From the NCBI GenBank assembly GCA_945903265.1, contig CAMDNQ010000007.1, positions 90,111 to 154,110 of the forward strand: a stretch of 64,000 nucleotides of DNA. Direction: 5' to 3'. A program made the translations under genes and the position numbers. How positions within the stretch are numbered: position 1 is the first letter of the stretch; each line of letters begins with the position of its first letter. The notes beneath the pieces were generated by a model that searched no databases, had not been told where the DNA came from, and saw only the letters and a list, made by a program, of their open reading frames with translations. This DNA is from Candidatus Sulfopaludibacter sp. SbA3. GTDB taxonomy: Bacteria; Acidobacteriota; Vicinamibacteria; Vicinamibacterales; UBA2999. Positions 7,422 to 57,006 of this stretch are shown here, piece after piece.

Positions 7422-8879
7422 TCACAGTGCCTGCGCCTGTGCGTGAAGCTGCGATTGAGCGGTCGTGAGCTGGCGGGCGATCTCCGCCCGCCACCGCGTA
7501 TCCTCCGCGAGGAGGTGCGTCGAATCGGCGAGCGCCCGGGCGGTTTCGGCCGGCGCCGGCCCTCCGTGCGTGCGTCGCACGTCGACGAAGTGCCGCGGGC
7601 TCAGGATGCCGGCGATCTGCGCGTCCGTGTACTGCAGGGGCACGCCGAGGAGGTCGCCCGAAATGGTCGCAAGCGCGGCGCCGAGTGGCGCGCCGGGCCG
7701 ATCGCTATACGCCTTCAGCAGGCGGGCTGCGATCGTATGCGCCGTCTTGAACGGCACGCGATGCTCGCGGACCAGGTGATCGGCCAGTTCGGTCAGCGTC
7801 GTCCCGCCGGCAGCCGCGCGCGACTCGAGCCGCGCGACGTCGAACGAGGCGGCCCGCAACGCCGCGTCGACCAGCGTGACCGCTCGATGGGCGTCACGGA
7901 ACGTGGTGGCGACGAGCGGCTGAAGATCGTCTTCGGTGTCGACCACGTCGCCAAACGGCGTGTTGTGCACCGTCACCATTACCGCGCCCGCCTGGCCGAG
8001 CGCCTTGCTGGCAATGGCGCGGGCATGCTCGAGCGCAACAGGGTTGCGCTTCTGCGGCATGATGCTGCTCGCCTGCACGAAGCCATCGGCAAGCCGCAGG
8101 TACCCGAACTCCATCGTGCTCCACAGCAGGAGATCCTGGATGACGCGGCCGAGGCCGGCCAGCAGGACGGCGGCCGCCGACACACTCTCGAGCAGGTAAT
8201 CGACGGTGGCGATGCTGCCGTAGGTATTGCCGGTCGGCGCATCGAATCCGAGCAGGTGGCTTGTCAGCTGACGATCGATGGGAAATCCGGTCCCGGTAAT
8301 CGCGCATGCGCCGAGCGGGCATCGATTTGTCGAGGCGAACGCGGCCCGGAGCCGCGTCGCGTCGCGCTCGAGCTGTTCGATCACCGCCAGCAGGTAATGC
8401 GCGAGCGTGGACGGCTGGGCGGGCTGTGTATGCGTGAGGGCGGCGATCAGCGTCTCGCGATGCTGGCCGGCCTGTGCGATCAGGCCCTCGCGCAGGCTCA
8501 GCGTGGCGTCGAACAGCCCCAGGATGCACTCGCGCTGCCGGAGCCTGTACATCGTCATGTCGATGTCATTGCGGCTGCGCGCCGTGTGCAGCCGGCCCGC
8601 GACATCGTCGCCGCACGCCTGCTCGACCAGCTGCTCCACGTGGAAGAAGAGATCCTCACAGGCCTGGTGGCCGTACGGCGTCGCGCGGATCTTCGTGACG
8701 GAAATGGAGTCGAGCGCGCTCCGCAGCGCGTGCGCCTCGTCGCCCGTGACGATGCCGCGCTGGGCCAGCATCACGAGGTGGGCGTAGTGGATCGCCATCA
8801 GCGGCGCAAGGAACAGCGCCTTGGCGTCCTCGAAGTTGTCGGTGAGGACGTGGTCGATGTACTTCGGGTCGAACGTCAT
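7422..8879 (-). CDS. argH: Argininosuccinate lyase-like enzyme (aspartase/fumarase superfamily)
   Basis: 485 residues. The superfamily eliminates fumarate from succinyl substrates; argininosuccinate lyase, the last step of arginine synthesis, is the best fit. Visible signatures are HTARSRNDIDMTMYRLRQRE (the substrate Asn/Asp segment), ALTHTQPAQPSTLAHYL with the catalytic His region, and the lid SSIMPQKRNPVALEHARA. No other arg gene is in the window, so a related lyase specificity is possible. The ATG at 8879 overlaps the stop of the M61 peptidase (ATGA). An upstream extension to 8954 only runs through the peptidase coding region and was rejected. Confidence 0.82.
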   Translation of the reverse strand: MTFDPKYIDHVLTDNFEDAKALFLAPLMAIHYAHLVMLAQRGIVTGDEAHALRSALDSISVTKIRATPYGHQACEDLFFHVEQLVEQACGDDVAGRLHTARSRNDIDMTMYRLRQRECILGLFDATLSLREGLIAQAGQHRETLIAALTHTQPAQPSTLAHYLLAVIEQLERDATRLRAAFASTNRCPLGACAITGTGFPIDRQLTSHLLGFDAPTGNTYGSIATVDYLLESVSAAAVLLAGLGRVIQDLLLWSTMEFGYLRLADGFVQASSIMPQKRNPVALEHARAIASKALGQAGAVMVTVHNTPFGDVVDTEDDLQPLVATTFRDAHRAVTLVDAALRAASFDVARLESRAAAGGTTLTELADHLVREHRVPFKTAHTIAARLLKAYSDRPGAPLGAALATISGDLLGVPLQYTDAQIAGILSPRHFVDVRRTHGGPAPAETARALADSTHLLAEDTRWRAEIARQLTTAQSQLHAQAQAL

Positions 8880-10742: not shown

Positions 10743-12446
10743 TTGTTCCTCAAGCATTTCTACTCCACCGACCACAAGATCATCGGCCTGCTCTACGGAT
10801 TCACGAGCCTCTTTTTCCTGCTCGTGGGTTTTTCGCTGGTCGTCCTGATTCGCTGGCAGCTTGCCTATCCGGGCGAGCCCGTGCCCTATGTCGGCGGACT
10901 GCTGGGGGCGGCAAATGCGCCGGGCGGGGTGATCCTCCCCGAGTTCTATAACCAGCTCGGCGCCATGCACGGCACCATCATGGTGTTCCTCGGCGTTGTC
11001 CCGCTGGCCGTCGGCGCCTTCGGTAACTACCTGATTCCGCTGCAGATCGGCGCGCCGGACATGGCGTTCCCCCGTCTCAACCTCGCGAGCTACTGGTTCT
11101 ACTTCGTCGGCGGCGCCATCATGCTGGGCAGCTTCCTCGTCCCCGGCGGCGCGGCGAACAACGGCTGGACGTCGTATCCCCCGCTCTCGGATCTCGCGCC
11201 AGGCAACGGCCAGACATGGTGGCTGGCCGGCATGCTGTGCCTGATCTTCTCGTCGCTGCTCGGCGCGCTGAACTTCATCACGACGATCGTGCAGCTCCGC
11301 GCCCCCGGCATGACGTGGTTCCGGCTGCCCTTCTTTGTATGGGCGCAGTTCGTGACGGCATTTCTGCTGCTCCTCGCCTTTCCGGCGCTGCAGGCCGCCG
11401 CGCTCCTGCAGGGCATGGATCGCCTCGCCGGCACGAGCTTCTTCCTGCCAAGCGGCCTCGCGGTCAGCGGCCAGCCGCTCGACGTCGCGGGGGGCGGCAA
11501 CGCGCTTCTCTGGCAGCACCTGTTCTGGTTCCTCGGGCATCCCGAGGTGTACGTCCTGATCCTGCCGGGGATGGGCATCGTCGCCGAAGTGATCACCAAC
11601 AACACGCGGAAGCCGTTGTGGGGCTATCGCCTCATGGTCTATTCGCTGTTCGTCCTGGGCTTCCTCTCGTTCGTGGTGTGGGCGCACCACATGTTCCTGA
11701 CCGGCATGGGCACGGTGATCAGCGCGTTCTTCCAGGCGACCACGATGATCATCTCGATTCCGTCGGTCGTGATCCTGAGCTCGCTGATTCTGTCGCTGTA
11801 TGGCGGGTCGATCCGGTTTACGACGCCGATGCTCTTCGCGCTCGCGTTCCTGCCCATGTTCGGCATCGGCGGACTGACAGGCCTTCCGCTGGGACTGGCG
11901 ACGACCGACATCCCGCTGCACGACACCAACTACGTCGTCGGCCACTTCCACTATCTGGTGGCGCCGGGCACGATCTTCGCGCTCTTCGCGGGGATCTATC
12001 ACTGGTTCCCCCGCATGACAGGGGGCCGGATGATGAACGACACGCTCGGCCGCATTCATTTCGTCGGGTCGCTCATCTGCATGAACGTGATCTTCCTGCC
12101 GATGTTCGTGCAGGGGCTCGCAGGCGTGAACCGGCGGCTCTGGGATGGCGGTGCGGTGTACGCGCACGCGCAGGAGGTCCTCTCGCTCAACATCCCGATG
12201 TCGATGGCGGCCTTCGGTCTCGCGTTCTTTCAGCTGTTCTTCATCGTCAACCTGTTCCTGAGCCTTCGAGGACCGCGAACCGTTACCGACAATCCGTGGG
12301 GCGCCACCACGCTCGAATGGCAGACGGGGCCGGTCGCGGCGCTTCGCGTCTATCGCGATCCGTACGAGTACAGCGTGCCCGGCGAGCCGACCGACTTCCT
12401 GCCTCAGAATGTCGGGCCGGCCCCGCGAAGCGGTCCTGCCGAATAG
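10743..12446 (+). CDS. coxA: Cytochrome c oxidase subunit I (A-type haem-copper oxidase)
   Basis: 567 residues; reduces O2 to water and conserves energy as a proton gradient. Haem ligands lie in NQLGAMHGTIMVF (haem a) and NYVVGHFHYL; CuB ligands are in GHPEVY and VVWAHHM. The Tyr of HPEVY (cross-linked Tyr) and the preceding Glu are present, which marks the A1-like D-channel, as does D in IGAPDMAFPR. Aligning around GGSI, the K-channel Lys of Paracoccus (PTGIK) is Ile here (PSVVI). The start is TTG at 10743; an in-frame stop at 10725 rules out any earlier ATG. The order of the operon is I-III-IV-small protein-II. Confidence 0.95.
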   Translation: MFLKHFYSTDHKIIGLLYGFTSLFFLLVGFSLVVLIRWQLAYPGEPVPYVGGLLGAANAPGGVILPEFYNQLGAMHGTIMVFLGVVPLAVGAFGNYLIPLQIGAPDMAFPRLNLASYWFYFVGGAIMLGSFLVPGGAANNGWTSYPPLSDLAPGNGQTWWLAGMLCLIFSSLLGALNFITTIVQLRAPGMTWFRLPFFVWAQFVTAFLLLLAFPALQAAALLQGMDRLAGTSFFLPSGLAVSGQPLDVAGGGNALLWQHLFWFLGHPEVYVLILPGMGIVAEVITNNTRKPLWGYRLMVYSLFVLGFLSFVVWAHHMFLTGMGTVISAFFQATTMIISIPSVVILSSLILSLYGGSIRFTTPMLFALAFLPMFGIGGLTGLPLGLATTDIPLHDTNYVVGHFHYLVAPGTIFALFAGIYHWFPRMTGGRMMNDTLGRIHFVGSLICMNVIFLPMFVQGLAGVNRRLWDGGAVYAHAQEVLSLNIPMSMAAFGLAFFQLFFIVNLFLSLRGPRTVTDNPWGATTLEWQTGPVAALRVYRDPYEYSVPGEPTDFLPQNVGPAPRSGPAE

Positions 12447-42104: not shown

Positions 42105-42617
42105 TCAGATCGTACGGCTATCGTAGGCCCAATGCAGGACGGCCTGCCGCTGCCGGCGCCGGCAGTCGAGATCGCCCTTCTCGCAGTTCTTCCGAATCGC
42201 GGCAACATGACGCGCGATCGCCCGCCATCGTCGGATCTGACGCGCGTCATCCGCCGTGCGGCGACCCATGTAGTACCGGCAGTACCATTGAAACCATCCG
42301 CGTGGATCCTGCCGGTGGATCCAGCCGTTCCGCCGCCAGGCGGCCAGGGATTGAGACGCGTTGACTCCGACGCAATTGAGTCGTCCGTCGTGGCGCTCGG
42401 CGCACAATTTCGCGTTGGCAAACCAGCTCGCGGGGAACTCTGCGCAACAGTCGGTCATGTACTTGCCGCCGAAGACGCCCAGGCGCAGCATCTGCCGGGG
42501 CGTCAGATCGGGCCGGAACCCAGGCGCGAACGCACGGCCGGCGGCCTCGGTGCGGTAGTAGACGTAGCCGTGCTGCATGAGGTCGTCGACGACCACCTGG
42601 CGCGCTAGAAACGCCAC
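42105..42617 (-). CDS. Conserved 170-residue protein (YYRTE...WYCRYYMGRR type)
   Basis: 170 residues. I recognise it only as a conserved bacterial protein with blocks APGFRPDLTPRQMLRLGVFGGKYM and DPRGWFQWYCRYYMGRRTADD; it tends to lie near photolyase/YbgA genes, from memory. It is rich in Arg, Trp and Tyr, with no membrane helix. Start GTG 42617 overlaps the end of the TonB-receptor frame by 13 bases. It precedes the TudS-DUF1722 gene by 7 bases. Confidence 0.78.
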   Translation of the reverse strand: MAFLARQVVVDDLMQHGYVYYRTEAAGRAFAPGFRPDLTPRQMLRLGVFGGKYMTDCCAEFPASWFANAKLCAERHDGRLNCVGVNASQSLAAWRRNGWIHRQDPRGWFQWYCRYYMGRRTADDARQIRRWRAIARHVAAIRKNCEKGDLDCRRRQRQAVLHWAYDSRTI

Positions 42618-44989
42618 TCGAGGCCAACCAACGGGAAGACACCAAGCTGCTCGCTGGCATCGGGTGCATTGGTGCGGCGATTCCAGGTGTAGCCGCTGAC
42701 ATTACGGCGCCCCGTCAGGTTCTGAACCCCGGCGAAAAGGATCGCGGGCTTGCCGGCAATCGTCGCGTTCCTGTCGATACGCGCGTCGATGCGAACGTAA
42801 ACGGGCCCGCGCACCGCGTTGACGTTGGAGAGGTCGTAGACGCCGCGCCGCTGTCGCGTCGACTCGGGAACGTCGAATGGCGTATACGGCCGCCCCGACC
42901 GCGAAGCAACTCTCACGGACGACTCCCATTTCCTGGACCAGCGTCGTCCGCCTGTCAGGTTCAGCACCAGCGGGTAGTCGAACGAGCCGGGCCGAAGCAC
43001 GCCATCGCGCCCCGCATGCCGGGCCTGGGACAGCGACAGAACGAGTTGCCCGTACCACGGCCCGCCACCTTTCCTGGCCAGCTGGACCTCGATCCCCAGA
43101 CTCCGGCCGGTGCCCCCGCTCGTCAGCGGGAACAGGACTTCCTGGACGTTGAACGTGTCGCCCAGATTTGCGAGCGACACGGAGGGGTACTCGGCGGCCA
43201 CCGGATAGTCGCGATAGTCCTTGCGATAGGCTTCGACGCCCAGCGACCAGCCGTCGGGCACCACGTACGCGATGCCCCCGACGTAGTGATGTGCGCGGAA
43301 CGGCTTCAGCGCCCGGTTCTCCGGGAAGACGACAAGAAACTGAAATGCCGGCTGCTGATAGTAGATTCCCGCACTCGCCTGTAGCGACAGCCGGGCCGTC
43401 AGCGCGAGGGTGGCGGCGACCCGTGGGCTGAACCGCGACGCGTCGATGTACTGATACCGATCGAACCGTCCGCCGGCGGTGACCGCGAGGGCCGGGGTGA
43501 GGTCGTGCGTGAACTGTCCGTAGGCGCCGGGCTGCCAGGCCGTCAGGCGCTCGGACACGCGAAAGGCGTTCATGCCCGGCTCGCGGGAGTACGGACTGTC
43601 GTACCCGAGCGGCGCAGCGCTGTTGTACCTCACGCGAAACTGCTTCACGCTGGCGCCCAGCTGGACCTTGGTCCGTGAAGACCGCGTCAACGTGGCGTCG
43701 TACTTGACGGTGGTCTCCGACTCTCTGGAGTCGTCGTCGTAGATTTCCGGGCTGGAGGCAATGATCTGATCGGCGCTGATCCCTGGCGCCGGCAAGCCGT
43801 TCCTCACGAGATCCTTGACAGTGGATCCCACGGCCGCGGTGGAGTTGGTGACGCCGAGCAAGCCGACACCCCGCGTTCCATAGAGGTGCTGCCAGTTGAC
43901 GCCCGTCGCACTGCGCCATCCGCGATACCGGATGTCGAAGTTGAAGACCTCCTGGTCGTTCGGCGTCGAGTCTGTCAGGCCGAGCCGAATCCGATCCGCG
44001 CCGCTGACGTTCACCACCCAGATGCGATCGGTGGGATTGAGGTCATACACCGCCTTGGCGTTCAGCGTGTACAGCACCGGCACGCCGCCGATGCCCGCAT
44101 CGGCGGTGAACACATCCAGGAAGCTTCGACGCGCGGCAACGACCCAGGAGCCTCGGCCCTTCGACAATGGTCCTTCCACCGAGCCCCCCGCGCCCGCGAA
44201 CCCGAGCGTCGCGCGCGCCTGGACCTTCTCGCGGCTGCCTTCGCGTTGAGTGATCTGCAGGACGCTCGACGTTCGATTGCTGTACGACGCAGGATACCCG
44301 CCGGTCAGGAACGTCACGTCGCGAATCATCGACGGTTCCAGCATGCTGACCGTGCCGCCCGCCGAGGCGAAGCTGGCGAACGTATTGATATTCGGCACCT
44401 CGACATTGTCGACGACGAACAGGTTCTCGAGCGGGCTGCCGCCGCGGACGATGATGTCGTTGCGAAAGTCGTCGGAGCCTGGAACGACACCAGGCAGGGT
44501 CTGCACAAAGCGTGAGACGTCCTGCAGTGATCCGGCTGAGCGGAACACTTCCTCCGCAGTGACGAGATAGGCGGATGTCTTCACCTCGTCCGGCAGGACC
44601 ACGTTCGGCGCGGTCACCGTGATCGTGGTCTCGAGGCGCGAGGTTGCCGGCAGCGTGACCTCGACGCGCTGGTCCACACCCGCGCGCACGGCGATGCGTC
44701 CGAGTCCCAGCGGAGTCCCGCCCGGCGGAGTCGCTTCGAGTGCGTACTCGCCGGACCGGATGTGCTCCAGCAGGAAAGCGCCTCGTTCGTCGGTCACGGC
44801 ACACTGCGCAGTGCCGGCAAGGCAAAGGGTGACGAATGCGGCCGGGGCGGCTGTGGCGTCCTCCACAATGCCGCTGAGAGAACCGACACCAGTGGTATCC
44901 TGCGCGGCCGCGGGCGGGGCAAACGCCACCGCGCACGCCAGCGCCAGCCACAGCGCGGTGAGCCGGAGGGTTTGCGACACACCCGACAT
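42605..44989 (-). CDS. TonB-dependent receptor, in frame with the upstream SDR gene
   Basis: 794 residues counted from ATG 44989, the start of a clean signal peptide (SQTLRLTALWLALACAVAF then APPAAAQ). The carboxypeptidase-like domain (GSLSGIVEDATAAPAAFVTL), the plug (VSRFVQTLPGVVPGSDDF, NDIIVRGGSPLENLFVVDNV) and a 22-strand barrel ending in EWRF follow. It imports a large substrate across the outer membrane. There is no stop between this signal peptide and the SDR-SRPBCC frame: the whole 42605-46804 is open (1399 codons). No ribosome-binding site is seen just upstream, so how it starts is open. Confidence 0.82.
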   Translation of the reverse strand: MSGVSQTLRLTALWLALACAVAFAPPAAAQDTTGVGSLSGIVEDATAAPAAFVTLCLAGTAQCAVTDERGAFLLEHIRSGEYALEATPPGGTPLGLGRIAVRAGVDQRVEVTLPATSRLETTITVTAPNVVLPDEVKTSAYLVTAEEVFRSAGSLQDVSRFVQTLPGVVPGSDDFRNDIIVRGGSPLENLFVVDNVEVPNINTFASFASAGGTVSMLEPSMIRDVTFLTGGYPASYSNRTSSVLQITQREGSREKVQARATLGFAGAGGSVEGPLSKGRGSWVVAARRSFLDVFTADAGIGGVPVLYTLNAKAVYDLNPTDRIWVVNVSGADRIRLGLTDSTPNDQEVFNFDIRYRGWRSATGVNWQHLYGTRGVGLLGVTNSTAAVGSTVKDLVRNGLPAPGISADQIIASSPEIYDDDSRESETTVKYDATLTRSSRTKVQLGASVKQFRVRYNSAAPLGYDSPYSREPGMNAFRVSERLTAWQPGAYGQFTHDLTPALAVTAGGRFDRYQYIDASRFSPRVAATLALTARLSLQASAGIYYQQPAFQFLVVFPENRALKPFRAHHYVGGIAYVVPDGWSLGVEAYRKDYRDYPVAAEYPSVSLANLGDTFNVQEVLFPLTSGGTGRSLGIEVQLARKGGGPWYGQLVLSLSQARHAGRDGVLRPGSFDYPLVLNLTGGRRWSRKWESSVRVASRSGRPYTPFDVPESTRQRRGVYDLSNVNAVRGPVYVRIDARIDRNATIAGKPAILFAGVQNLTGRRNVSGYTWNRRTNAPDASEQLGVFPLVGLEWRF

Positions 44990-46804
44990 GGCCGCATGGA
45001 CGATGCGATGGCGGCGAGCGAACGCGCGTGCGAGCAGCGGATGGAGCACCCGAACCGCGAGCCGCTGCGTAAGGCGGCCACCGGGCACGGCATACTCGAC
45101 GCGATCCTCGTAGAGACTCTGGCCTGTGCCTATCGGTTCGATCCGGTGCGTGTGACGCCAGAGCTTGAACGGCCCTCGCACCTGCTCGTCACAGAACTGC
45201 CGATCGCGCACGTAGCCGTAGTGGCGCGCTTCCCATCGCAGCGACAGCGGTCGCACCCCCAGAGCGATCGTGAGGACGCCCCCATCCCGCAGGCCGCCGG
45301 TTTGGCGCTCGATGCGCACAAATCTGCGCGACGGAAGGAGGTCCATCACCGCCTGCGGCCGCTCGTGCCAGCGAAACAGATCGGCGGCGCGGCCTGGTAC
45401 GACAGACCGGAACGTGAACACGGCGCGCTCAGAGGTCCCGTCGGCGGCGCCGGCACGCTCGGCGATTCGCTCCAGCAGACCGCCAAAGATCAGGTTGTGG
45501 ATCGGAAGGATCGCATACCAGTACGCGCGTCCCATCACGCCGCGCGGGTCGAACGTCGCCGTCTGCCGAATCATCGATCGCCGCCCGCCATCGAGCGGCG
45601 TGACTTCGAAATCGAGCCAGCCCTTACCCGGCAGCTTGAAATCTGCCGACAATCGCAGGCGGCGATCGGGTTCGAAGGCCTCGACGGTCCATCCGTCAAT
45701 CGGGTCGCCCACGTCGCAGACGTCGCGGTCGCGGCGTCCGCGGTTCATCCCGACGCCCCCGAGGCGCCGGTCCACCCACCCCCGGGCTCTCCAGAGCATG
45801 TCGCCGAAGTACCACCCGGTCTCGCCCCCAATTCGCCGAATCGGAGCGAACGCGTCTGCTGGAGGCACGTCGACGACAACGGAGCGTGTATCTGTCTTCA
45901 GACGCGAGGCGTTCCCGGCGCCGATTGCCTTTGCAATGGCGATGCTGAGGGACATCGGCTCGATTCCAAACGTGTCTCTCGCTGCCGTCGATCGGACGAC
46001 GGTCGAGTTCTTCAAGCCTTCCACCAGCGCACGGCCGACGCGAGCCTGAGCCGGCGTGACAAGTGCGAGCCACAGACCCGACAGGTGCGGGCTCAACACC
46101 GGCACCGGCACCAGCAGCCGCCGCAGGCCGCGAAGCCCGGCGAACCTGCGCATCAGGTCGCCATAGGAGACCACTTCTGGTCCCCCAATCTCGAAGATGC
46201 CGTGGACGGCCTCGGGCAGCTCGAGCGCCGCCTCGAGGAACGCCAGCACATCGTCAATCGCGATTGGCTGCGTGAGCGTCGACACCCAGCGGGGACAGAA
46301 CATGACCGGCAGGCGCTCAACGAGTGCCTGGATCATTTCAAAGGACAGGCTTCCGGCGCCGATGACCACCGACGCCCGGAACTCGATGACGGGAACGCCG
46401 CTCGCGCGAAGAATCTCGCCGGTCTCGGCCCGGCTTTTGAGGTGCGCCGAAAGCGGGGTGGCGTCGTCAGCGAGTCCGCCAAGATACACGATGCGGCGGA
46501 CGCCTGCGCGCCGTGCCGAGCGGGCGAACGTCTCGGCGGCACGCCGATCAGCGTCCGCGAAATCGGGTGTGCGACCCATTGAATGAACCAGGTAATACGC
46601 GCACTCCACGCCGGCCAGCGCGCGGTCGAGTGACGGTTCGTCGAGGCAATCGCCCTGCACGATCTCGGTCGACGCTGCCGTCGCGTTGAGCTGACCCGGC
46701 CGGCGCACCAGGCAACGCACCGCGCGACCGCCCTCTTCGAACCGTCGAAGGAGGCGGCCGCCGATGTATCCCGTAGCGCCGGTAAGCAGAACGGGAGCGT
46801 CCAT
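44990..46804 (-). CDS. SDR - DUF2867 - SRPBCC protein (no stop before the TonB receptor)
   Basis: 605 codons from ATG 46804. An atypical SDR with NAD(P) motif LLTGATGYIGGRLLRRF (1-300), DUF2867 (about 310-465; DVPPADAFAPIRRIGGETGWY, AYWYAILPIHNLIFGGLLERI) and an SRPBCC/cyclase-like domain (about 475-600; DEQVRGPFKLWRHTHRIEPI). SDR-DUF2867 proteins occur in light and singlet-oxygen stress clusters. No stop codon separates the third domain from the following signal peptide. Either a true fusion, an internal start, or a small indel. It starts 5 bases after fasciclin's stop. Confidence 0.8.
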
Positions 46805-48327: not shown

Positions 48328-48990
48328 TTACTGGCCGCGCACCGGCGGCGTGAACGGCTGGATCACCGCGAACTCGTCCACCTGCAGGTCGACCGCGTTG
48401 TCGACCCGGATGCCGGCGGCACCGGCGACCTTGTCGCCTTCGGTGTAGGAGTTCGTGCCCGGGCGCGTCGGCGTCGCGTGGACGACCGCGCCGTTAATCA
48501 GATACGACACCGCCGTCGGCGCAATCTGAATTTCAAGCATGTTGGTCGACTTGCCGCTCGCATCCGGCTTCCTGATCATGAAGTGCAGCGACTTGTCGAT
48601 CTCGTGAATCTCGTTGCCGAGACGATGGCGCACCTGGAACGCGCCGTCCTGCGCGATCGTGAAGTACACGTAGTCGGGCGTCCCCTCGAGATCCCTCCCG
48701 CCGAACATGAGGCCGTAGTCGGTAATCGTGGCGCTGGGCTTCAGGAGCGTGAAGGTCCCGCGTACCGCGAAGATCCCCTTCACCGTGTTCGCCGGATTCC
48801 AGATGATGGCGCCGGGGCCCCCCGAGACCGAGAAGCCTTTGGCCATGGGAGAAAACTTGATGGTGGAATGGCCTTCGGCAGCTGCGGCGCTCTGGCCGTC
48901 GATCCGTACTTTGAAACCACTCTGGACCTGAACCGCCGTCGGTATGGCGAGCACGGCTGCCACCGCAATGAGCAAGGCACTTCGAAGCAT
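48328..48990 (-). CDS. Secreted protein of LamG/DUF1080-like fold
   Basis: 220 residues with a signal peptide (MLRSALLIAVAAVLAIPTAV). Strand-rich blocks (KGIFAVRGTFTLLKP, DYGLMFGGRDLEGTPDYVYF, NMLEIQIAPTAVSYLINGAVV) suggest a concanavalin-like beta-sandwich as in DUF1080/3-keto-disaccharide hydrolase-like proteins. AGGAGACAG precedes ATG 48990. Catalytic residues not identified. Confidence 0.7.
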   Translation of the reverse strand: MLRSALLIAVAAVLAIPTAVQVQSGFKVRIDGQSAAAAEGHSTIKFSPMAKGFSVSGGPGAIIWNPANTVKGIFAVRGTFTLLKPSATITDYGLMFGGRDLEGTPDYVYFTIAQDGAFQVRHRLGNEIHEIDKSLHFMIRKPDASGKSTNMLEIQIAPTAVSYLINGAVVHATPTRPGTNSYTEGDKVAGAAGIRVDNAVDLQVDEFAVIQPFTPPVRGQ

Positions 48991-49064
48991 GACTGTCTCC
49001 TTCGTTGCTGCTTCTTTGACGCGCGAGTGGCGCATATGATATCCCTTCGGCGCCCCGGAACAGC

Positions 49065-49544
49065 GTGTCAATAGAAACCCCGCCTGCAGACGCACCCCGT
49101 CGCCGTTTCCTGGCCACGATCACCACCGGCATTCTCAGCATCATCGGCGGCATCCTTGGCGTCATCGGCGGCGGCGCCGTCCTGTCGTCGACGGGCGGCA
49201 GGCAGGAAGACTGGCTGGCCGCCTCGGCACTGCACGACCTCCCCGATAACGAACCGACCGCGGTCACGCTCAGCGTGATGCGGGTCGACGGCTACCGCGA
49301 GGCGCTCGTACGGCGAACGATTTTCCTCGTGAAAACAGGTGAATCGGAGGTTGCGGCGTTCGATGCGACCTGCACGCACCTTGGATGCCTCGTCGGCTGG
49401 GATCCGCAGGGCCAGGTCTTCAAGTGCCCCTGCCACGGCGGCATCTTCGACCGGTCGGGCGCCGTCATGGAAGGACCTCCCCCGGAAGGATTGATGAAAA
49501 TCGCCACGCGGGTGGACGGTAATCGCGTGATGGTCCAGGCCTAG
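49065..49544 (+). CDS. Rieske iron-sulfur protein of a bc-type complex
   Basis: 159 residues. An N-terminal membrane anchor (RRRFLATITTGILSIIGGILGVIGGG), with a twin-Arg-like RRR, is followed by the Rieske fold. The 2Fe-2S ligands are CTHLGC and CPCHGG. It transfers electrons from quinol at the Qo site. The start is GTG at 49065. It shares one base with the cytochrome b gene (TAGTG). Confidence 0.95.
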   Translation: MSIETPPADAPRRRFLATITTGILSIIGGILGVIGGGAVLSSTGGRQEDWLAASALHDLPDNEPTAVTLSVMRVDGYREALVRRTIFLVKTGESEVAAFDATCTHLGCLVGWDPQGQVFKCPCHGGIFDRSGAVMEGPPPEGLMKIATRVDGNRVMVQA

Positions 49545-51670
49545 TGCGCGACTGGTTAGACTCCAGAACCGGCTTTCGCAACCTGTTGAAGCACGTGCTC
49601 GACGAGCCGCTCCCGAGCGGCCTCGGGTGGTGGTTCGTCACCGGCAGCGTCGTGCTGTTTCTGCTGGCGGTACAGCTCCTCACCGGCGTCGTGCTCGCCT
49701 TCTTCTATTCACCCTCCCCCGATACCGCCTACGACAGCGTCCGGTTCATCATGGAGCGCGTCACCTTCGGGCGCGTGCTGCGAGGGCTGCACTTCTTCGG
49801 CGCGAGCTTCATGGTCGTCGCGGCGATCGTCCACATGCTGCGCGTGGTGGCACTCGGCTCGTACAAGAAGCCGCGTGAGCTGAACTGGATCGTCGGCGTC
49901 CTGCTCCTGCTCATCATTCTCGCCTTCGCTCTGACGGGGTACCTGCTCCCCTGGGACCAGAAGGCGTACTGGGCGACGACCGTCACGATCAACATCGCGC
50001 GCGGCGTGCCGTTCGTCGGCACGTTCCTGAGCGCGGAGCTCATGGGCGGCGCGGACCTGGGTGCGCTCACGCTGATGCGCTGGTACGCCGCGCACGTCTT
50101 CCTGCTGCCCGCATGCCTAATCGGGTTCACCGTCGCGCATATCTATCTGATGCGCCGGCAGGGCATCTCGGGACCCATCACGCCGGTGCCGGGTCCGCCC
50201 AAGCCGTTCTATCCGTACCACGCGCTCAAGGACACGATCGCCATCGCCGTCGTCTTTGCGCTGCTCCTCGGGTTCTCGATCGTCTTCAATGCGCCGCTCG
50301 ACGCGGTTGCCGACCCCACCGACGCGACGTACATCCCGCGTCCCGAGTGGTATTTCATGAGCCTGTTCGAGCTCCTGAAGTACTTCCCGGGCCGGCTCGA
50401 ACCAGTCGCGACCGTCGTCATTCCGGGACTCGTCATCTCGCTGCTGCTCCTGCTGCCCTTCCTGGACCTGAGCCCGGACCGTGAAGCGCGGAGACGGCCC
50501 ATCGTCATCGGCAGCTTCGTCGTCGTGCTCGCGGGCATCACGTTCCTCACCGTCCTCGGGTTCCGCAGTACGCCGTCAGAGGGCCAGCAGGCCGGCGCAG
50601 GCGCCGACGGCACGGTGCCCGACGGGACCGGGCAGATGATGGTCGAGGACGTCTTCAAGAACGTTCAGGCGCTCAAGGGCATGACCGTCGACGAGTTCAT
50701 GGGAACGATGGGCCTGATGTCCGCGTCGCTCGGTCTGTGCTGCAGCGACTGCCATCCTGGCGCCGGCACCGACAGCGTCGTCTGGGAAGACGACAGCAAC
50801 CCGCGAAAGGTGACCGCCCGGAGGATGGTGCTGATGATGCAGCAGATCAACCGGGACAACTTCTCAGGACGGCAGGTCGTGACCTGCTGGACCTGTCACC
50901 AGCTGCGCGACATTCCGGTCCAGACGCCGCGGCTCGACCACCTGTATAGCGAGGCGCTCACGGAGCTCGACGACGTCGTCCCCAGATTCGAGGGGATGCC
51001 GGAACCGCGCGTCATTATCGACAGGTACCTGGAGATCATCGGCGGCGCCGACAAGGTGAAGGGCATCACCAGCATCACGGCGACGGGGAAAGTTGAGGCG
51101 TTCGGCAGCTTCGGCGGCGGTGGGAACTTCGAGTTCTATGCGCAGGCGCCCGACAAGCGCGCGATGCACAGCCATCTGCCGTCGGGTGAGAGCGCCAGGA
51201 CCTACGACGGCCGTACCGGCTGGTTTGCGATTCCGCTCGCCGTCGTCCCGAAGTACCCGCTGTCGGGCGGCGAGCTCGATGGCGCGCGCCTGGATGCGCT
51301 CCTCACGTTCCCCGCGCAAATCGCGACGGCGCTGACATCGCTGCGCGTCGGCCCGCGAACCGACGTTTTGGGCCGCGACGCCTACCTGCTGCAGGGCAAT
51401 GGCGCGAACGGCTCGTTCGCGACGCTCTATTTCGATCGGGAAACGGGGCTGCTGCTGCGGACCGTGCGCCACACGCCGTCGCAGATTGGCAAGGTGCCCG
51501 CGCAAATTGACTACGAGGATTACCGCGACGTGGCGGGGATCAAGTTCCCGCACAAGTGGACGTTCACCTGGCTCGACGGCCGGGACACGTTCCAGTTTGC
51601 TGATGTGAGATTCAACGCCCCGATTGGGGCGGCGAAATTCGGGGAGCCGCTGCTGCCAGCGACCCCCTGA
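49544..51670 (+). CDS. Cytochrome b - dihaem cytochrome c - LolA-like fusion
   Basis: 708 residues. Cytochrome b/b6 part (1-345): haem b ligands H in LHFFGASFMVVAAIVHM (13 between) and HVFLLPACLIGFTVAH (14 between, b6-like); Qo motif PEWY in RPEWYFMSLFELLKYFPG; three last helices as in subunit IV. Second part (370-470): photosynthetic-reaction-centre-like cytochrome c with CSDCH and CWTCH and Met-rich FMGTMGLMSASLG. Third (about 485-700): LolA/outer-membrane lipoprotein-sorting-like beta sheet (RTYDGRTGWFAIPL, FATLYFDRETGLLLRTVRH). No separate cytochrome c1 gene is present. It ends 5 bases before a REP-like element. Confidence 0.9.
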   Translation: MRDWLDSRTGFRNLLKHVLDEPLPSGLGWWFVTGSVVLFLLAVQLLTGVVLAFFYSPSPDTAYDSVRFIMERVTFGRVLRGLHFFGASFMVVAAIVHMLRVVALGSYKKPRELNWIVGVLLLLIILAFALTGYLLPWDQKAYWATTVTINIARGVPFVGTFLSAELMGGADLGALTLMRWYAAHVFLLPACLIGFTVAHIYLMRRQGISGPITPVPGPPKPFYPYHALKDTIAIAVVFALLLGFSIVFNAPLDAVADPTDATYIPRPEWYFMSLFELLKYFPGRLEPVATVVIPGLVISLLLLLPFLDLSPDREARRRPIVIGSFVVVLAGITFLTVLGFRSTPSEGQQAGAGADGTVPDGTGQMMVEDVFKNVQALKGMTVDEFMGTMGLMSASLGLCCSDCHPGAGTDSVVWEDDSNPRKVTARRMVLMMQQINRDNFSGRQVVTCWTCHQLRDIPVQTPRLDHLYSEALTELDDVVPRFEGMPEPRVIIDRYLEIIGGADKVKGITSITATGKVEAFGSFGGGGNFEFYAQAPDKRAMHSHLPSGESARTYDGRTGWFAIPLAVVPKYPLSGGELDGARLDALLTFPAQIATALTSLRVGPRTDVLGRDAYLLQGNGANGSFATLYFDRETGLLLRTVRHTPSQIGKVPAQIDYEDYRDVAGIKFPHKWTFTWLDGRDTFQFADVRFNAPIGAAKFGEPLLPATP

Positions 51671-51675
51671 CCGCC

Positions 51676-51700
51676 GGCCGACCTGAAGGTCGGCCCCTAC
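51676..51700. repeat. REP-like palindrome after the cytochrome b fusion
   Basis: GGCCGACCT-GA-AGGTCGGCC, perfect 9-bp stem with GA loop, followed by CCTAC. The stop of the convergent gene (TAG, 51699-51697) is read from the reverse of this flank. Same type as the elements at 19783 and 23983. Confidence 0.85.
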
Positions 51701-52509
51701 TTGGGAATGGCGTCCTTGTACTTTTCGCTCTCCTGATCGAACCGGCAGTCCCACTCGAAAATCTCGGCGTTCCTGTCGAGCACCCGGTAGAGCGGCATGC
51801 TGATCTTCCACGGCCGTGTGAAGACCGTGGGATCCTCGATCGTCGCTTCGTACTGGATGTGATCGCGGTCGATGAAGGAGTAGCGCTCCACGACGTGCAG
51901 GTCGGCGCTGTGGTGATTCCCAGCGTGGTCGAACCATGTGCGCTCGTCCAGTTTCCGCACGTCCACAACGAGCGTGTCGCCGTCCCACTTGCCGCGCGAA
52001 TCACCCATCAGGAAGTCCGGCCAGCCGTCCAGCCAGGCGCGTGATTTTCCGGCAAGGTCGACCGTGCGCACCGCACGCGCGAAGGCGTACCGCATGCCGA
52101 CCATGTTCGGGTTCTGGATGATCTCGAACGGATACGGCATGTAGGTTGCGCGCGGGACGCCGGGGAGATAGCACTTCGCGAAGGCCGGATCCTCGGTCAG
52201 GCGCCTGGAGAAGTTCTCCTGCTTCTGCTTCAACGCCTCCGGCTTGTACGGAATCTCGTTCCCCTCGACAACCCCGCGCCCAGGCGGCATGCCGACGAAC
52301 GAGGTGTACGAGGAGGCGTGGTCCTGAAGGTCCCACGCCGCGGTGTTCAACGCCTGCCAGATCCCGCTGAAATCCGGCTTGCCGTCAGCCGTGCGCGGCA
52401 CCTGATTCGCCGCCGGCTTCGCCGCGGGCGTCTGACCACCCGCAAGCGTGAATGCGCCAAGAACGATTCCTGCCGCGATGCCGAGTGTGAGTCTGCCCAG
52501 TGATCTCAT
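51697..52509 (-). CDS. Secreted DGKPDFSGIW-type protein
   Basis: 270 residues with a signal peptide (LTLGIAAGIVLGAFTLAGG). The motif ADGKPDFSGIWQ defines a secreted family numerous in Acidobacteria-like genomes, of unknown role. Typical inner blocks are PYPFEIIQNPNMVGMRY, MGDSRGKWDGDTLVVDV and FDHAGNHHSADLHVVERY. It is the last gene of the TonB-receptor unit (56880 to 51697). Confidence 0.82.
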   Translation of the reverse strand: MRSLGRLTLGIAAGIVLGAFTLAGGQTPAAKPAANQVPRTADGKPDFSGIWQALNTAAWDLQDHASSYTSFVGMPPGRGVVEGNEIPYKPEALKQKQENFSRRLTEDPAFAKCYLPGVPRATYMPYPFEIIQNPNMVGMRYAFARAVRTVDLAGKSRAWLDGWPDFLMGDSRGKWDGDTLVVDVRKLDERTWFDHAGNHHSADLHVVERYSFIDRDHIQYEATIEDPTVFTRPWKISMPLYRVLDRNAEIFEWDCRFDQESEKYKDAIPK

Positions 52510-52521
52510 CGTGACCCGCCC

Positions 52522-53457
52522 CTAGAAGCCGAAGATGTTCTGCATTGAGTAGCTGCCTTCGTGGCACGTGAACTCCGGCGCCGGCTCCTCGGTTTCATCC
52601 ATCGGATAGAAAAAGCCGGCGGACTTCACCGGGCGCGTGAACGTCTTCGGATCGTCGTACGTGAGCACGAACGTAATCAGCTTGTCCGACACGACGGTGA
52701 ACTGCTCGGTAATGTGCAGCTCCTGGCTGAAAGGCGGAAACGTGTTGCCGACACCGAAGTAGGCCCTGCCATCCAGGTTCGTGGTGTCGACGTGCAATGT
52801 ATTGCCTTCCCACCGGCCGGTCGAGTGGCCGCCAAAGAGCCGCATGTTCGGACTGGGGTGCGCGCGGCCATCCGTGTAGAACACGCGGGTGTGGTGATTG
52901 GCCTCGAACAGCAGGTGGACCTGCCCCGGTCTCTGCAGGATGTTCACGCTTCCGCCGGCCCACGGCTGCGGCGGCGCACAGCGCACGCTGAGTTCGAGAT
53001 ACGCGAGGTTCTTTGCGGGGCAGCACATGTTCTTCGCGTAATCCAGGCGCCGCGCTCGCCCCTCGACGGTGTAGGGAAGCAGACGGTCGACCGGATCGAT
53101 CACCCCCTGCGGGGGACGCGGGTTGGGCATGTACTTCGGCGGCTTCGCCACCGCGACTTCGCCGCCCGACCCTGCCGCGACAGGCCCCTGCCCGAAGCCC
53201 TGGGGCTCCGACAGGACGCCGAACGCCTTCAGTTCGCTTTCCGGTGCGTTCGCCTCGTTGAGGCCACCGCCAACGCGTACCCACGTTCCGCGGATATCCG
53301 GGGTTCCATCCGGCAGGCGCTTGATGGCGCCCGCTGCCGCGGCGGCGGGCTTCGCAGCGGCCGCCGGCGACTGACCCACCGCAATACCCGGCATGGTCCA
53401 CGACGCCGCGATCGCCACGACGGCGGCCGCAGCGGTTCCAAGAAGTTGTGTCCTCAC
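52522..53457 (-). CDS. Secreted DGTPDIRGTW-type protein (second member)
   Basis: 311 residues with a signal peptide (TAAAAVVAIAASWTMPGIAVG). Shares PDGTPDIRGTWVRVGGG, GHSTGRWEGNTLHVDTTNLDG and HITEQFTVVS with the previous gene, so they are paralogues. A Cys pair in KNMCCPAKNL is distinctive. Twelve bp from the next gene of the same unit. Confidence 0.8.
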   Translation of the reverse strand: MRTQLLGTAAAAVVAIAASWTMPGIAVGQSPAAAAKPAAAAAGAIKRLPDGTPDIRGTWVRVGGGLNEANAPESELKAFGVLSEPQGFGQGPVAAGSGGEVAVAKPPKYMPNPRPPQGVIDPVDRLLPYTVEGRARRLDYAKNMCCPAKNLAYLELSVRCAPPQPWAGGSVNILQRPGQVHLLFEANHHTRVFYTDGRAHPSPNMRLFGGHSTGRWEGNTLHVDTTNLDGRAYFGVGNTFPPFSQELHITEQFTVVSDKLITFVLTYDDPKTFTRPVKSAGFFYPMDETEEPAPEFTCHEGSYSMQNIFGF

Positions 53458-53480
53458 GTGTGACCCCTTTCGCCTACGTG

Positions 53481-53879
53481 CTACTGCGCCTGTTTGAGCG
53501 ACGACGCCGCAAACAGGTCCCTGCCGTCGGGCAATCTCACCTGGAACGCGTTGCCCACGGATCCACCGGCCCGGGCCATGAATCCGCTGATCGTGACCGC
53601 CGTCCCGGGCTTGATGTCATTGCGCGACCAGCCGGCCCGCAGCAGCGCGTTCGGCGCGCCCATCTCGAATCGCCAGTTGGTTACCTTGCCGTCAGGCGTC
53701 TTCACGTCGATGAAGAGCCATGCGTGGGGGTTCGTCCATTCGAGCTTCGTGATCTCGCCTGCGAGCTTGACCGGCTTCGACTGATCGAACTCCGCGGAGA
53801 ACGCATGGTGGGCGACGAGCGGGGCCGCTGCCACGAACACACACAGCGCCGCCGTTATGAGTAGACCTGCCTTACGCAT
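53481..53879 (-). CDS. Secreted DUF6152 protein
   Basis: 132 residues with a signal peptide (LLITAALCVFVAAAPLVAHH). The body, HHAFSAEFDQSKPVKLAGEI followed by LEWTNPHAWLFIDVKTPDGK, fits DUF6152, a small beta-barrel-like secreted family. It lies 10 bases from the upstream receptor. Confidence 0.85.
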   Translation of the reverse strand: MRKAGLLITAALCVFVAAAPLVAHHAFSAEFDQSKPVKLAGEITKLEWTNPHAWLFIDVKTPDGKVTNWRFEMGAPNALLRAGWSRNDIKPGTAVTISGFMARAGGSVGNAFQVRLPDGRDLFAASSLKQAQ

Positions 53880-53889
53880 ACAAACCTCC

Positions 53890-56880
53890 CTAGAAGTCGA
53901 TCTGGGTCCCGATCTGGAAATACCGCGCCTGCAGGATCAGGGACGGCCGCTGCCACCGGTTGTTGGCGGCATTCGAGCTGAACCTCGTGGCGATCGTCTG
54001 CCAGTCATTCGAGTTCAGCACGTTGTAAATGTCCAGCGACACGCGCACGCGTTTCGCCCCGTTGCCCGCGATCTGCTTGCCCAGGCGCAGATCGAGCTGC
54101 TTGGTATGCCCGCCCACCAGTGCGAACGGCTTGAGCAGCTCCACCGCCACGGTTCCGGCCGTGCCCGCCGACAGGTTGCGCCCCAGCGAGGGCGCAATCT
54201 CGGCATTGGTCGCAATGTAATCCGCCGTAATCGACTGGAACAGTCCGCCGCCGGCGGGCTGGGGGACGGCCTGATAGGTGCCGCTCAGACTCACGCCCCA
54301 TGGCAGCTGATAGACAGCGTACCCCTTGTACTGGGTCAGGTATGGCGGAATGACCTCGCAGCTCGTCATCGGGCTCTGCGGAGTGGTGGTGGACGCCACG
54401 GCGGGGCTCGTCACGCTCAGGAAGACCGCCGGCACGTCCACGGTGAAGCACTGGCTCGTCGTCGTGCGTCCGGTGCTGAGGCCCGCGAACAGCGTCAGTC
54501 CCTGGATGCGCCAGCTCATCGACGCGTCGACGCCGTTATAGACCTCCGTCTGCTCGCCGTAGTGCTTCGCCGCGCGAACCAGGTTCTGCGACTGGCCGAC
54601 CTTGTTCGGCTTGAGGTCGTAGAAGCCGCAGATCTGCTCGCCGGCATTCGGCAGCCGCGAATCGTTGCGGGGCGCCGTGATGCAAAACGGATCGTAGTCC
54701 GACGGTGTCACCAGCTGGTTGTCGACCACGCTGAAGTTGCCGTACCAGCGGCGGAAGTAGCCGACGTCGACCGACATGCCACTGGCGATTTGGTGCTGGA
54801 CGCCGAAGCTCGTGCTCCAGTTGAACGGCCGCACGCCCCACCCTTCCAGCACTTCCTTGTCGAACTGGGTCGCCGTCGGGTTGACCTTGCCGAAGTTCAG
54901 GTTCGACAACGGGCCGCACTCGTTATTGAGCGCCGGGTTGCTGAAGTCGCAGTCGGGATAGTAGTTGCCGTTGCTGTCGGTCCACGCCCTGGTGGCGCTG
55001 TTCACCGACGTATTCACCGGATTGACGTTCGACGCGAGACTCCCGCCCGAGATGTAGCGGCCGACCGTCGCCTTGACGGCGGTGCGGCCCGTGCCAAAGA
55101 GGTCGTACGACAGACCGATGCGCGGGTTGATGTCCTTCCAGTTCGGGACGTTCTTGACCGCGGCGAAATTGCGCTCCGGCACGAATCGGCCCGCAGGGAG
55201 GTGCTGCTCGGGCACGGCGGCGTTGAGATAGTCGAAGCGGACGCCGTAGTTGATCGTCATGCGGCGCAGCGCCCACGAGTCCTGCGCGAACACGCCCAGA
55301 TCGGCCTTGATGTCGTTGCGCTGCTCGATCGGCGTGGCGAAAAGGGTGATCCGGCGCGGCACGCCCTGGAGGAAGTTGTAGTTCATGTCGCCGTTGACCG
55401 ACGTGTTGTTGTACGTCGGCCCGTTACCGCGCACGCGCATCATGAACCCGGCCTTGTAGCTGTGCGAACCGGTCACGTAGGCGGCCGATGAGCGGAACGT
55501 GAGCGGGTTGTCGAAGTTGTGGCCGTAGACCGTGGACGCCCGATAGATCTGGCCCGTCGAATCCTCCGTCACCGAAATGACGTCGAAGCCGACCGCGGGG
55601 TCGATCTGCCGCCGCTCGTCCCAGTCCTGCTCGTACGACATGAAACCCGTATCGAGCAGCAGCTTGTTGTTCACCGGGACACGCCAGACCGCCGTCCAGA
55701 TGGCGTTTGGATAGAACGGCGTGTAGGTGGTGGCTTCCGGCGAGACAGTCGCGGCGGCGCGCCGGCGCGGCGTGATGCGGCGGTCCTTCTCGTAGCTGAA
55801 GTTGAACTTGTTGCGCGGTGTCGCCTGCCAGGTGAGGCGAGCAGCGTAGTTGCGGTGGACCTGCGTGTCGGTGCCCTGGCGGCTCGTATCGGGCACGTAC
55901 ACCCACGCCAGCGGGTCCTTGTTGTAAAAGTGGTCCGCGACGTACTTCTCAATCTCGTTGTTGCGATACGCGCCGTAGAACCACAGCTTGTCTTCGATCA
56001 GCGGTCCGCCGCCGTTCGGGTTCACGTCCCAGGTGCGGTTCAGGCCGTTGACGGCCGTCAGCCCCTGCGCGATGTATTCGTCCGAGAGGTTGCTGTTCGC
56101 CATGCTCTTGTTGGCATACAGCGCCATGACGTTCCAGTTGAAGGTGTTGCCGCCTTCCTTCGGAATGGCATTCATCCAGACGCCGGAATACTGCGCCTCG
56201 GCGTCGCCGCCGTCGGTGCGCACGCTGACTTCCTGGACGCTGCCCTCGTTCATGTAGAAGGTGACAGCCTGTCCGCCGGCCGACCCGCGCCGATCCGACA
56301 TGCCGTCGATCGCGCTGTTCGTCTCGCCGATGCGGCTGCCGTGCACCGACAGGCTCCGCGACGCCGGACCGTCGATATTCTGGCCGCCCACGACGCCCGG
56401 GATCGTCTGCGCGAGGCTCTGAATCTGCCGGTTGTTCGGCAGGCTCTCGAGCACCTCCTTGTCGTAGACGGCGCTGCGGGTCGTGCTCGTCACGTCCACG
56501 AGCGGCGCTTCGCCGGTGACGCTGATCGTCTCGTTCAGCTCACCCACGTTCAAGTCGGCGTTGACGGTCGCCGTGAAGTCGGCGCGGAGCTCGAAATTCT
56601 CGACGCGGACCGTGTTGAAGCCGGGCAGCGTGAAGGTGATGGTGTAGGTGCCGGGGCGAAGGTCGACGATGCGATAGACGCCGGAGGAGTCGGTGGCGAC
56701 CGCGCGCACGCGCTCGATCAGCGCGGGGCTGGCAGCTTCAACGGTCACGCCGGGCAGCACGGCGCCCGTCGTATCCCGGACGGTCCCCGCCAGATTGCTC
56801 TGGGCGGCCTGGCCGTATACATGGACGGGAAGAACAAGAGACGCCGCGGTAGCCACCCACAGGAACAGGCGAGAGGTCAT
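53890..56880 (-). CDS. TonB-dependent receptor with carboxypeptidase-like domain
   Basis: 996 residues from ATG 56880 (GGAG upstream). Signal peptide SRLFLWVATAASLVLPVHVYG. Regulatory-like domain NLAGTVRDTTGAVLPGVTVEA, plug (SVTGEAPLVDVTSTTRSAVY, RQIQSLAQTIPGVVGGQNID), then a long barrel ending in IGTQIDF. The receptor uptakes an unknown substrate. It is followed by DUF6152 and two DGxPDxxGxW genes. Confidence 0.93.
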   Translation of the reverse strand: MTSRLFLWVATAASLVLPVHVYGQAAQSNLAGTVRDTTGAVLPGVTVEAASPALIERVRAVATDSSGVYRIVDLRPGTYTITFTLPGFNTVRVENFELRADFTATVNADLNVGELNETISVTGEAPLVDVTSTTRSAVYDKEVLESLPNNRQIQSLAQTIPGVVGGQNIDGPASRSLSVHGSRIGETNSAIDGMSDRRGSAGGQAVTFYMNEGSVQEVSVRTDGGDAEAQYSGVWMNAIPKEGGNTFNWNVMALYANKSMANSNLSDEYIAQGLTAVNGLNRTWDVNPNGGGPLIEDKLWFYGAYRNNEIEKYVADHFYNKDPLAWVYVPDTSRQGTDTQVHRNYAARLTWQATPRNKFNFSYEKDRRITPRRRAAATVSPEATTYTPFYPNAIWTAVWRVPVNNKLLLDTGFMSYEQDWDERRQIDPAVGFDVISVTEDSTGQIYRASTVYGHNFDNPLTFRSSAAYVTGSHSYKAGFMMRVRGNGPTYNNTSVNGDMNYNFLQGVPRRITLFATPIEQRNDIKADLGVFAQDSWALRRMTINYGVRFDYLNAAVPEQHLPAGRFVPERNFAAVKNVPNWKDINPRIGLSYDLFGTGRTAVKATVGRYISGGSLASNVNPVNTSVNSATRAWTDSNGNYYPDCDFSNPALNNECGPLSNLNFGKVNPTATQFDKEVLEGWGVRPFNWSTSFGVQHQIASGMSVDVGYFRRWYGNFSVVDNQLVTPSDYDPFCITAPRNDSRLPNAGEQICGFYDLKPNKVGQSQNLVRAAKHYGEQTEVYNGVDASMSWRIQGLTLFAGLSTGRTTTSQCFTVDVPAVFLSVTSPAVASTTTPQSPMTSCEVIPPYLTQYKGYAVYQLPWGVSLSGTYQAVPQPAGGGLFQSITADYIATNAEIAPSLGRNLSAGTAGTVAVELLKPFALVGGHTKQLDLRLGKQIAGNGAKRVRVSLDIYNVLNSNDWQTIATRFSSNAANNRWQRPSLILQARYFQIGTQIDF

Positions 56881-57006
56881 AAAAGCTCCTCGGTAGATAG
56901 GGGTTCCGGCGCGATTGTCTGGGGGTCGTTTTACCCGGCGCGATGCTAACACACCTGTCCGGAGGGTCCTTTGATCTTCTTCGGGGCTTTCGGCTAGGTT
57001 TTGACC

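Follow-up and report, generated by a model that had tools for sequence, protein, structure and literature searches.

How does a Rieske/cytochrome b complex pass on its electrons when no cytochrome c1 accompanies it, and why should its cytochrome b end in a dihaem cytochrome of the reaction-centre type? Both questions are raised by a locus in the genome of a soil/groundwater acidobacterium (3.52 Mb, 98.9% complete), within a stretch of 64,000 nucleotides of contig C7 (the window). Here the gene directly downstream of a Rieske gene reads through from a cytochrome b into a dihaem cytochrome c and then into a beta domain (Table 1). The answer that we consider quite probable is that fusion and Rieske protein together form a Rieske/cytochrome b quinol oxidase, the c-type exit of which was replaced once by a captured dihaem-beta cytochrome.

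Table 1. Features of the locus, with related genes elsewhere (positions are those of the window unless a contig or locus is named).
Feature	Position	Strand	Remarks
Divergent gene, function unassigned	48328..49095	-	Neighbour; conserved upstream in L058 (67%) and L059 (52%)
Rieske [2Fe-2S] protein, 159 aa	49065..49544	+	Pfam Rieske 1.8e-12
Fused gene, 708 aa	49544..51670	+	Uninterrupted ORF, GTG start; full-length orthologues L057, L058, L059
Cytochrome b, residues 1-342	49544..50569	+	Seven predicted TM helices, haem-b ligands, PEWY
Linker, residues 343-366	50570..50641	+	Length and sequence vary
Dihaem domain, PufC type, residues 367-460	50642..50923	+	CytoC_RC; profile match to PufC structures
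CSDCH haem motif	50741-50755	+	Residues 400-404
CWTCH haem motif	50885-50899	+	Residues 448-452
C-terminal beta domain, residues about 480-708	50981..51667	+	Weak collinear likeness to LolA and DUF6544
'GxPDxxGIWQ' secreted protein A	51697..52509	-	Recurring cassette neighbour
'GxPDxxGxW' secreted protein B	52522..53457	-	Recurring cassette neighbour
DUF6152 protein	53481..53879	-	PF19649 3e-33; recurring cassette neighbour
TonB-dependent-receptor-like protein	53890..56952	-	Named by sequence look; recurring cassette neighbour
Stand-alone dihaem-beta copies	G000 (host) contigs C2, C5, C9, C10, C14, C18, C25		L137-L145; further relatives L158-L177
Small PufC-type dihaem genes	L066:11598-12044, L067:2374-3212, L068:3622-4451, L069:3643-4281		Also in L063, L041, L044, L115

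The cytochrome b and its Rieske partner

The fused protein is the sole PF00032 cytochrome b of the host genome. Pfam places Cytochrome_B at residues 20-207 (1.8e-49) and Cytochrom_B_C at 266-342 (1.1e-9). The haem-b ligands (H83/H97 and H184/H199) and the PEWY motif of the Qo site (267-270) are invariant among 50 aligned homologues. The ligand pairs are 14 and 15 residues apart, which is the b6 spacing, and as the closest PDB match is also cytochrome b6 (3e-51), the protein is a b6-type cytochrome b, as the first-pass annotation had proposed. A covalent haem ci is not expected, because V32 replaces the Cys35 of b6, a position held by T, V, I or S across all 50 relatives. Prediction of the full-length structure reached good confidence for the cytochrome b alone, and gave seven helices. 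The topology of b6 and subunit IV is known, and by comparison with it seven predicted transmembrane helices would leave the C-terminus on the periplasmic side, the compartment of c-type haem attachment; the predicted topology fits a periplasmic position for the C-terminal domains.

The Rieske protein has an N-terminal RRR with a hydrophobic segment, and both cluster motifs, CTHLGC and CPCHGG. Its TAG stop shares one nucleotide with the GTG start of the fused gene. A Rieske gene lies immediately 5' of the cytochrome b in all four genomes with the fusion (the host and three others, described below) and in nearly all relatives. Cytochrome c1 (PF02167), which had been reported missing from the window, is absent genome-wide from all four, in a search where a control genome gave a positive, and no cytochrome f was seen in the Rieske/fusion operon.

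The dihaem and beta domains

Residues 363-460 match CytoC_RC (1.4e-10), with 48 residues separating the two CxxCH motifs. A profile of 29 relatives matched the PufC chains in the PDB (3e-28 over the haem 1-2 half) and gave a second match on the haem 3-4 half, which agrees with the first description of this part as a reaction-centre-type dihaem cytochrome c. Each CxxCH is preceded by a helix with a methionine, M389 or M428, that is invariant in the 29 relatives; these residues are candidate haem ligands, as would be expected of His/Met haems. Genes for reaction centres (Photo_RC, PsaA_PsaB) are absent from all four fusion genomes, so the tie to photosynthesis is one of fold alone, and a photosynthetic role was rejected for these organisms.

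Over residues 480-708, about 230 residues, the Pfam scan gave no family above cut-off. The first-pass annotation had seen a lipoprotein-sorting (LolA-like) domain here. A collinear resemblance to LolA does exist, at levels below significance: LolA appeared at E 0.18 in a PDB profile search, and hhalign gave a probability of 24%, against 0.4% in a control with the dihaem alignment. The likeness to LolA may thus serve as a lead, weakly indicated, and not as a result. Matches to DUF6544, near its threshold or short of it (best 1.3e-5), occur in 19 of 28 relatives, and one stand-alone paralogue in the host genome clears the cut-off. A model of the C-terminal half, made from a four-sequence alignment, had a pLDDT of 37. 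The beta domain most likely serves for docking or for binding a ligand, and was inherited with the captured cytochrome.

Proposed electron path and respiratory context

Quinol would be oxidised at the PEWY (Qo) site of the b6-type cytochrome b. One electron would return via the two b haems; the other would be carried by the mobile Rieske cluster to the tethered periplasmic PufC-type dihaem domain, which would replace cytochrome c1 or f, and from there to a periplasmic acceptor and finally a terminal oxidase. In this scheme we infer the haem loading, the direction of electron flow, the partner and the role of the beta domain. With the dihaem domain present and a predicted topology that fits, the original suggestion that the fused cytochrome is the electron exit in place of c1 stands as likely on sequence grounds.

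The host genome also encodes an alternative complex III beside a caa3-type oxidase (pentahaem, MopB/FeS, NrfD, ActD, ActE-like, COX2 with c haem, COX1). A second haem-copper oxidase subunit I (COX1) is found in the window at 10743-12446, and a similar gene occurs in genomes G307 and G308. Since the alternative complex III and the caa3 oxidase are present, the fused complex is not needed as the sole quinol:cytochrome c oxidoreductase, and is probably accessory, for particular conditions or partners.

DUF6152 cassettes

The four genes downstream of the fusion (51697-56952) have orthologues in matching order beside the fusion in L058 and L059; in L057, cassette orthologues were not found downstream of it. 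Secreted proteins A and B have no Pfam or NCBIfam match, and a literature search on DUF6152 and its cassette cytochromes returned no paper. The host genome contains about nine further, stand-alone dihaem-beta copies, and 43 DUF6152 genes. A DUF6152 gene is found within 2 kb of nine of the ten dihaem-beta modules (eight of nine stand-alones, plus the fusion), where the expected fraction is 0.059 (P about 8e-11, binomial, a somewhat optimistic value as it assumes independent positions and there are tandem clusters). The 'GxPDxxGxW' proteins and TonB-receptor-like genes recur beside the stand-alone copies too. Secreted dihaem-beta cytochromes constitute a large expanded family, with as many as about 20 matches in a single genome. 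Elsewhere in the window (42605-46804, minus strand) a 1399-aa frame joins an N-terminal part resembling NAD(P)-dependent sugar epimerases to a C-terminal TonB-receptor-like part; it may be a genuine fusion, or a frame boundary may have been missed.

Alternatively, the chain might run toward the cassette, with quinol powering a periplasmic reduction or being linked to an outer-membrane partner of the TonB-receptor/DUF6152 cassette, and with the partner or substrate bound by the beta domain. The close spacing of modules and DUF6152 genes and the synteny kept in L058 and L059 speak for this alternative, but the cassette includes no enzyme of known redox chemistry, it does not follow the fusion in L057, and the synteny may merely mark where the fusion arose; we regard the alternative as rather unlikely. 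A related proposal, which we hold to be doubtful, is that the beta domain works in the complex by binding a hydrophobic ligand or an outer-membrane or cassette partner, and that electrons are exchanged directly with products of the TonB-receptor/DUF6152 cassette, not with soluble cytochrome c alone. If it were true, the stand-alone dihaem-beta paralogues would be interchangeable carriers between the cassettes and the respiratory chain.

Orthologues, linker and selection

Orthologues that keep the whole domain order come from three further genera in the host's family and are 80% (L057), 79% (L058) and 75% (L059, over residues 1-663) identical. Homology to L059 is lost after residue 663, perhaps because the protein can do without its last 45 residues or because the L059 contig contains an error. 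Within the family the fusion occurs in 4 of 43 genomes, within the order in 4 of 162, and a phylum-wide sample of 297 genomes contained it once. A scan of 84,980 species genomes, which relied on seed patterns that a more distant fusion could escape, gave three further full-length fusions and no more among the best 80 matches. No relatives were found in a search of viral contigs.

Every domain is under purifying selection: dN/dS between orthologues (Nei-Gojobori) lies at 0.14-0.24 in the cytochrome b, while the dihaem domain has 0.06-0.29 and the beta domain, up to residue 663, has 0.18-0.34. Residues 343-366, rich in Ser/Ala/Gly/Gln, are only 23-58% identical, with dN/dS of about 0.3-1.3. The low values on either side of this free segment indicate that both halves are maintained and that the junction is a linker. 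Of the two junctions placed by the first-pass annotation, at about residues 345 and 480, the former is therefore a true linker, yet a variable one, while the latter is older and common to all stand-alone paralogues.

An unconstrained linker of this composition could also be a site where a precursor is cut, which would release the dihaem-beta cytochrome from an ordinary cytochrome b and leave co-expression as the fusion's only purpose; homologues without cytochrome b do occur as stand-alone proteins. The four linkers share no conserved cleavage motif, however, and a fused C-terminal c domain is the norm among the nearest cytochrome b proteins, which makes such processing very unlikely. That neighbouring genes were joined by an assembly or frame artefact has a negligible chance even though the sources are draft genomes, mostly metagenome-derived, because four assemblies, each from another genus and 75-80% identical, have the same junction, both its sides are under purifying selection and the Rieske gene is upstream in all four. 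The orthologues rule out an assembly or frame error in the 708-aa ORF, and the full domain order in three other genera excludes a chimeric contig, so that the single uninterrupted polypeptide first described is genuine and occurs elsewhere in its family.

Two origins and one fusion event

A tree of cytochrome b groups the four fusions in a single clade (100/100), nested in a larger set with an older kind of tail, in which about 83-95 residues separate two CxxCH motifs. Closest to the fusions are L061 and L060, a placement that has moderate support. In the module tree the fusions again form one clade (100/100), here nested among the stand-alone dihaem-beta proteins, which are about 400 aa long and have N-terminal signal-like segments. 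The closest of these are 57-61% identical to the fusion module and belong to hosts from other families of the order. The dihaem and beta parts came jointly, as a pre-existing unit of many stand-alone proteins. A single fusion clade in both trees makes one replacement of the old c tail the parsimonious history: an old-tail cytochrome b would have been fused once, in frame, with a periplasmic dihaem-beta cytochrome that had until then stood alone, with loss of both the old two-haem c tail and the signal peptide of the stand-alone.

In most old-tail relatives rpsL-rpsG-fusA (genes named by sequence) follow closely on the Rieske/cytochrome b operon, whereas the fusion lies in the cassette, and the stand-alones nearest to the fusion module adjoin the same gene types as that cassette. 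The difference in location suggests that the operon probably moved into the cassette and captured its cytochrome there. In the host genome this slot upstream of rpsL-rpsG-fusA contains a pentahaem/molybdopterin/NrfD cluster that looks like alternative complex III and precedes an rpsL-like gene at 8295 (L179, G000:C31).

About eight old-tail relatives have one or two small PufC-type dihaem genes (~140-170 aa) just 3' of the operon, on the opposite strand; soluble electron acceptors are a possible role for their products. Descent of the fused tail from these genes is not favoured, as they show 31-37% identity to it versus 57-61% for the dihaem-beta stand-alones. Long tails with 13-21 CxxCH motifs were seen on the cytochrome b of Armatimonadota and one Bacillota bin (L086, L092, L094, L110, L116, L119, L122), an indication of how freely the c-type tail varies.

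Comparison with known systems

A dihaem c domain on cytochrome b is not new in itself. PMC12954380 describes one for anammox Kuste3096-3097 and states that gram-positive bacteria often have such fusions; in heliobacteria a separate dihaem cytochrome c replaces cytochrome f (PMC7143216). The nearest relatives of the present protein carry another such fusion, and the novelty lies in a module of PufC-type dihaem and beta domain that has taken its place. No description of that module fused to cytochrome b was found in the literature covered, with most subscription journals outside it. Here, with the sister architectures known, a respiratory complex has traded its likely electron-exit module for another that is unrelated to it, and the swap shows that Rieske/cytochrome b complexes can exchange their c-type half. 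As a "Rosetta stone", a family member fused to a quinol oxidase suggests that the stand-alone dihaem-beta proteins exchange electrons with the same segment of the chain. A large acidobacterial family, tied to DUF6152 cassettes and with about ten copies in this host, thereby gains a suggested place in respiration.

Kuste3096-3097 and the acidobacterial L060-L069 share with the fusion a Rieske and cytochrome b operon and two c haems on a periplasmic C-terminal extension, but theirs is not of the PufC type and spaces its CxxCH motifs about 85-90 residues apart, not 48, and the extra beta domain is found here. Cytochrome b6f has the same seven-helix layout, His spacing and PEWY; unlike in b6f, the b6 and subunit IV parts are fused into a single chain, the operon has no cytochrome f, and the cysteine for haem ci is missing. 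Cytochrome bc1 differs in having the c1 subunit, for which the four fusion genomes have no gene. The tetrahaem cytochrome PufC is homologous through its haem 1-2 half and likewise places a Met in the helix that precedes each CxxCH, but it carries four haems, not two, and serves a photosynthetic reaction centre. The LolA/LolB-like fold and DUF6544 resemble the beta domain in a weak collinear profile match and a similar terminal N-x-x-(I/L)-x-x-x-x-F motif, whereas the hhalign probability with LolA is low and the domain is known here from sequence alone. The stand-alone acidobacterial "c-type cytochrome" (NCBIfam NF033196) has the same PufC-type dihaem plus beta unit, up to 61% identical, but is secreted and soluble-looking, and has no cytochrome b.
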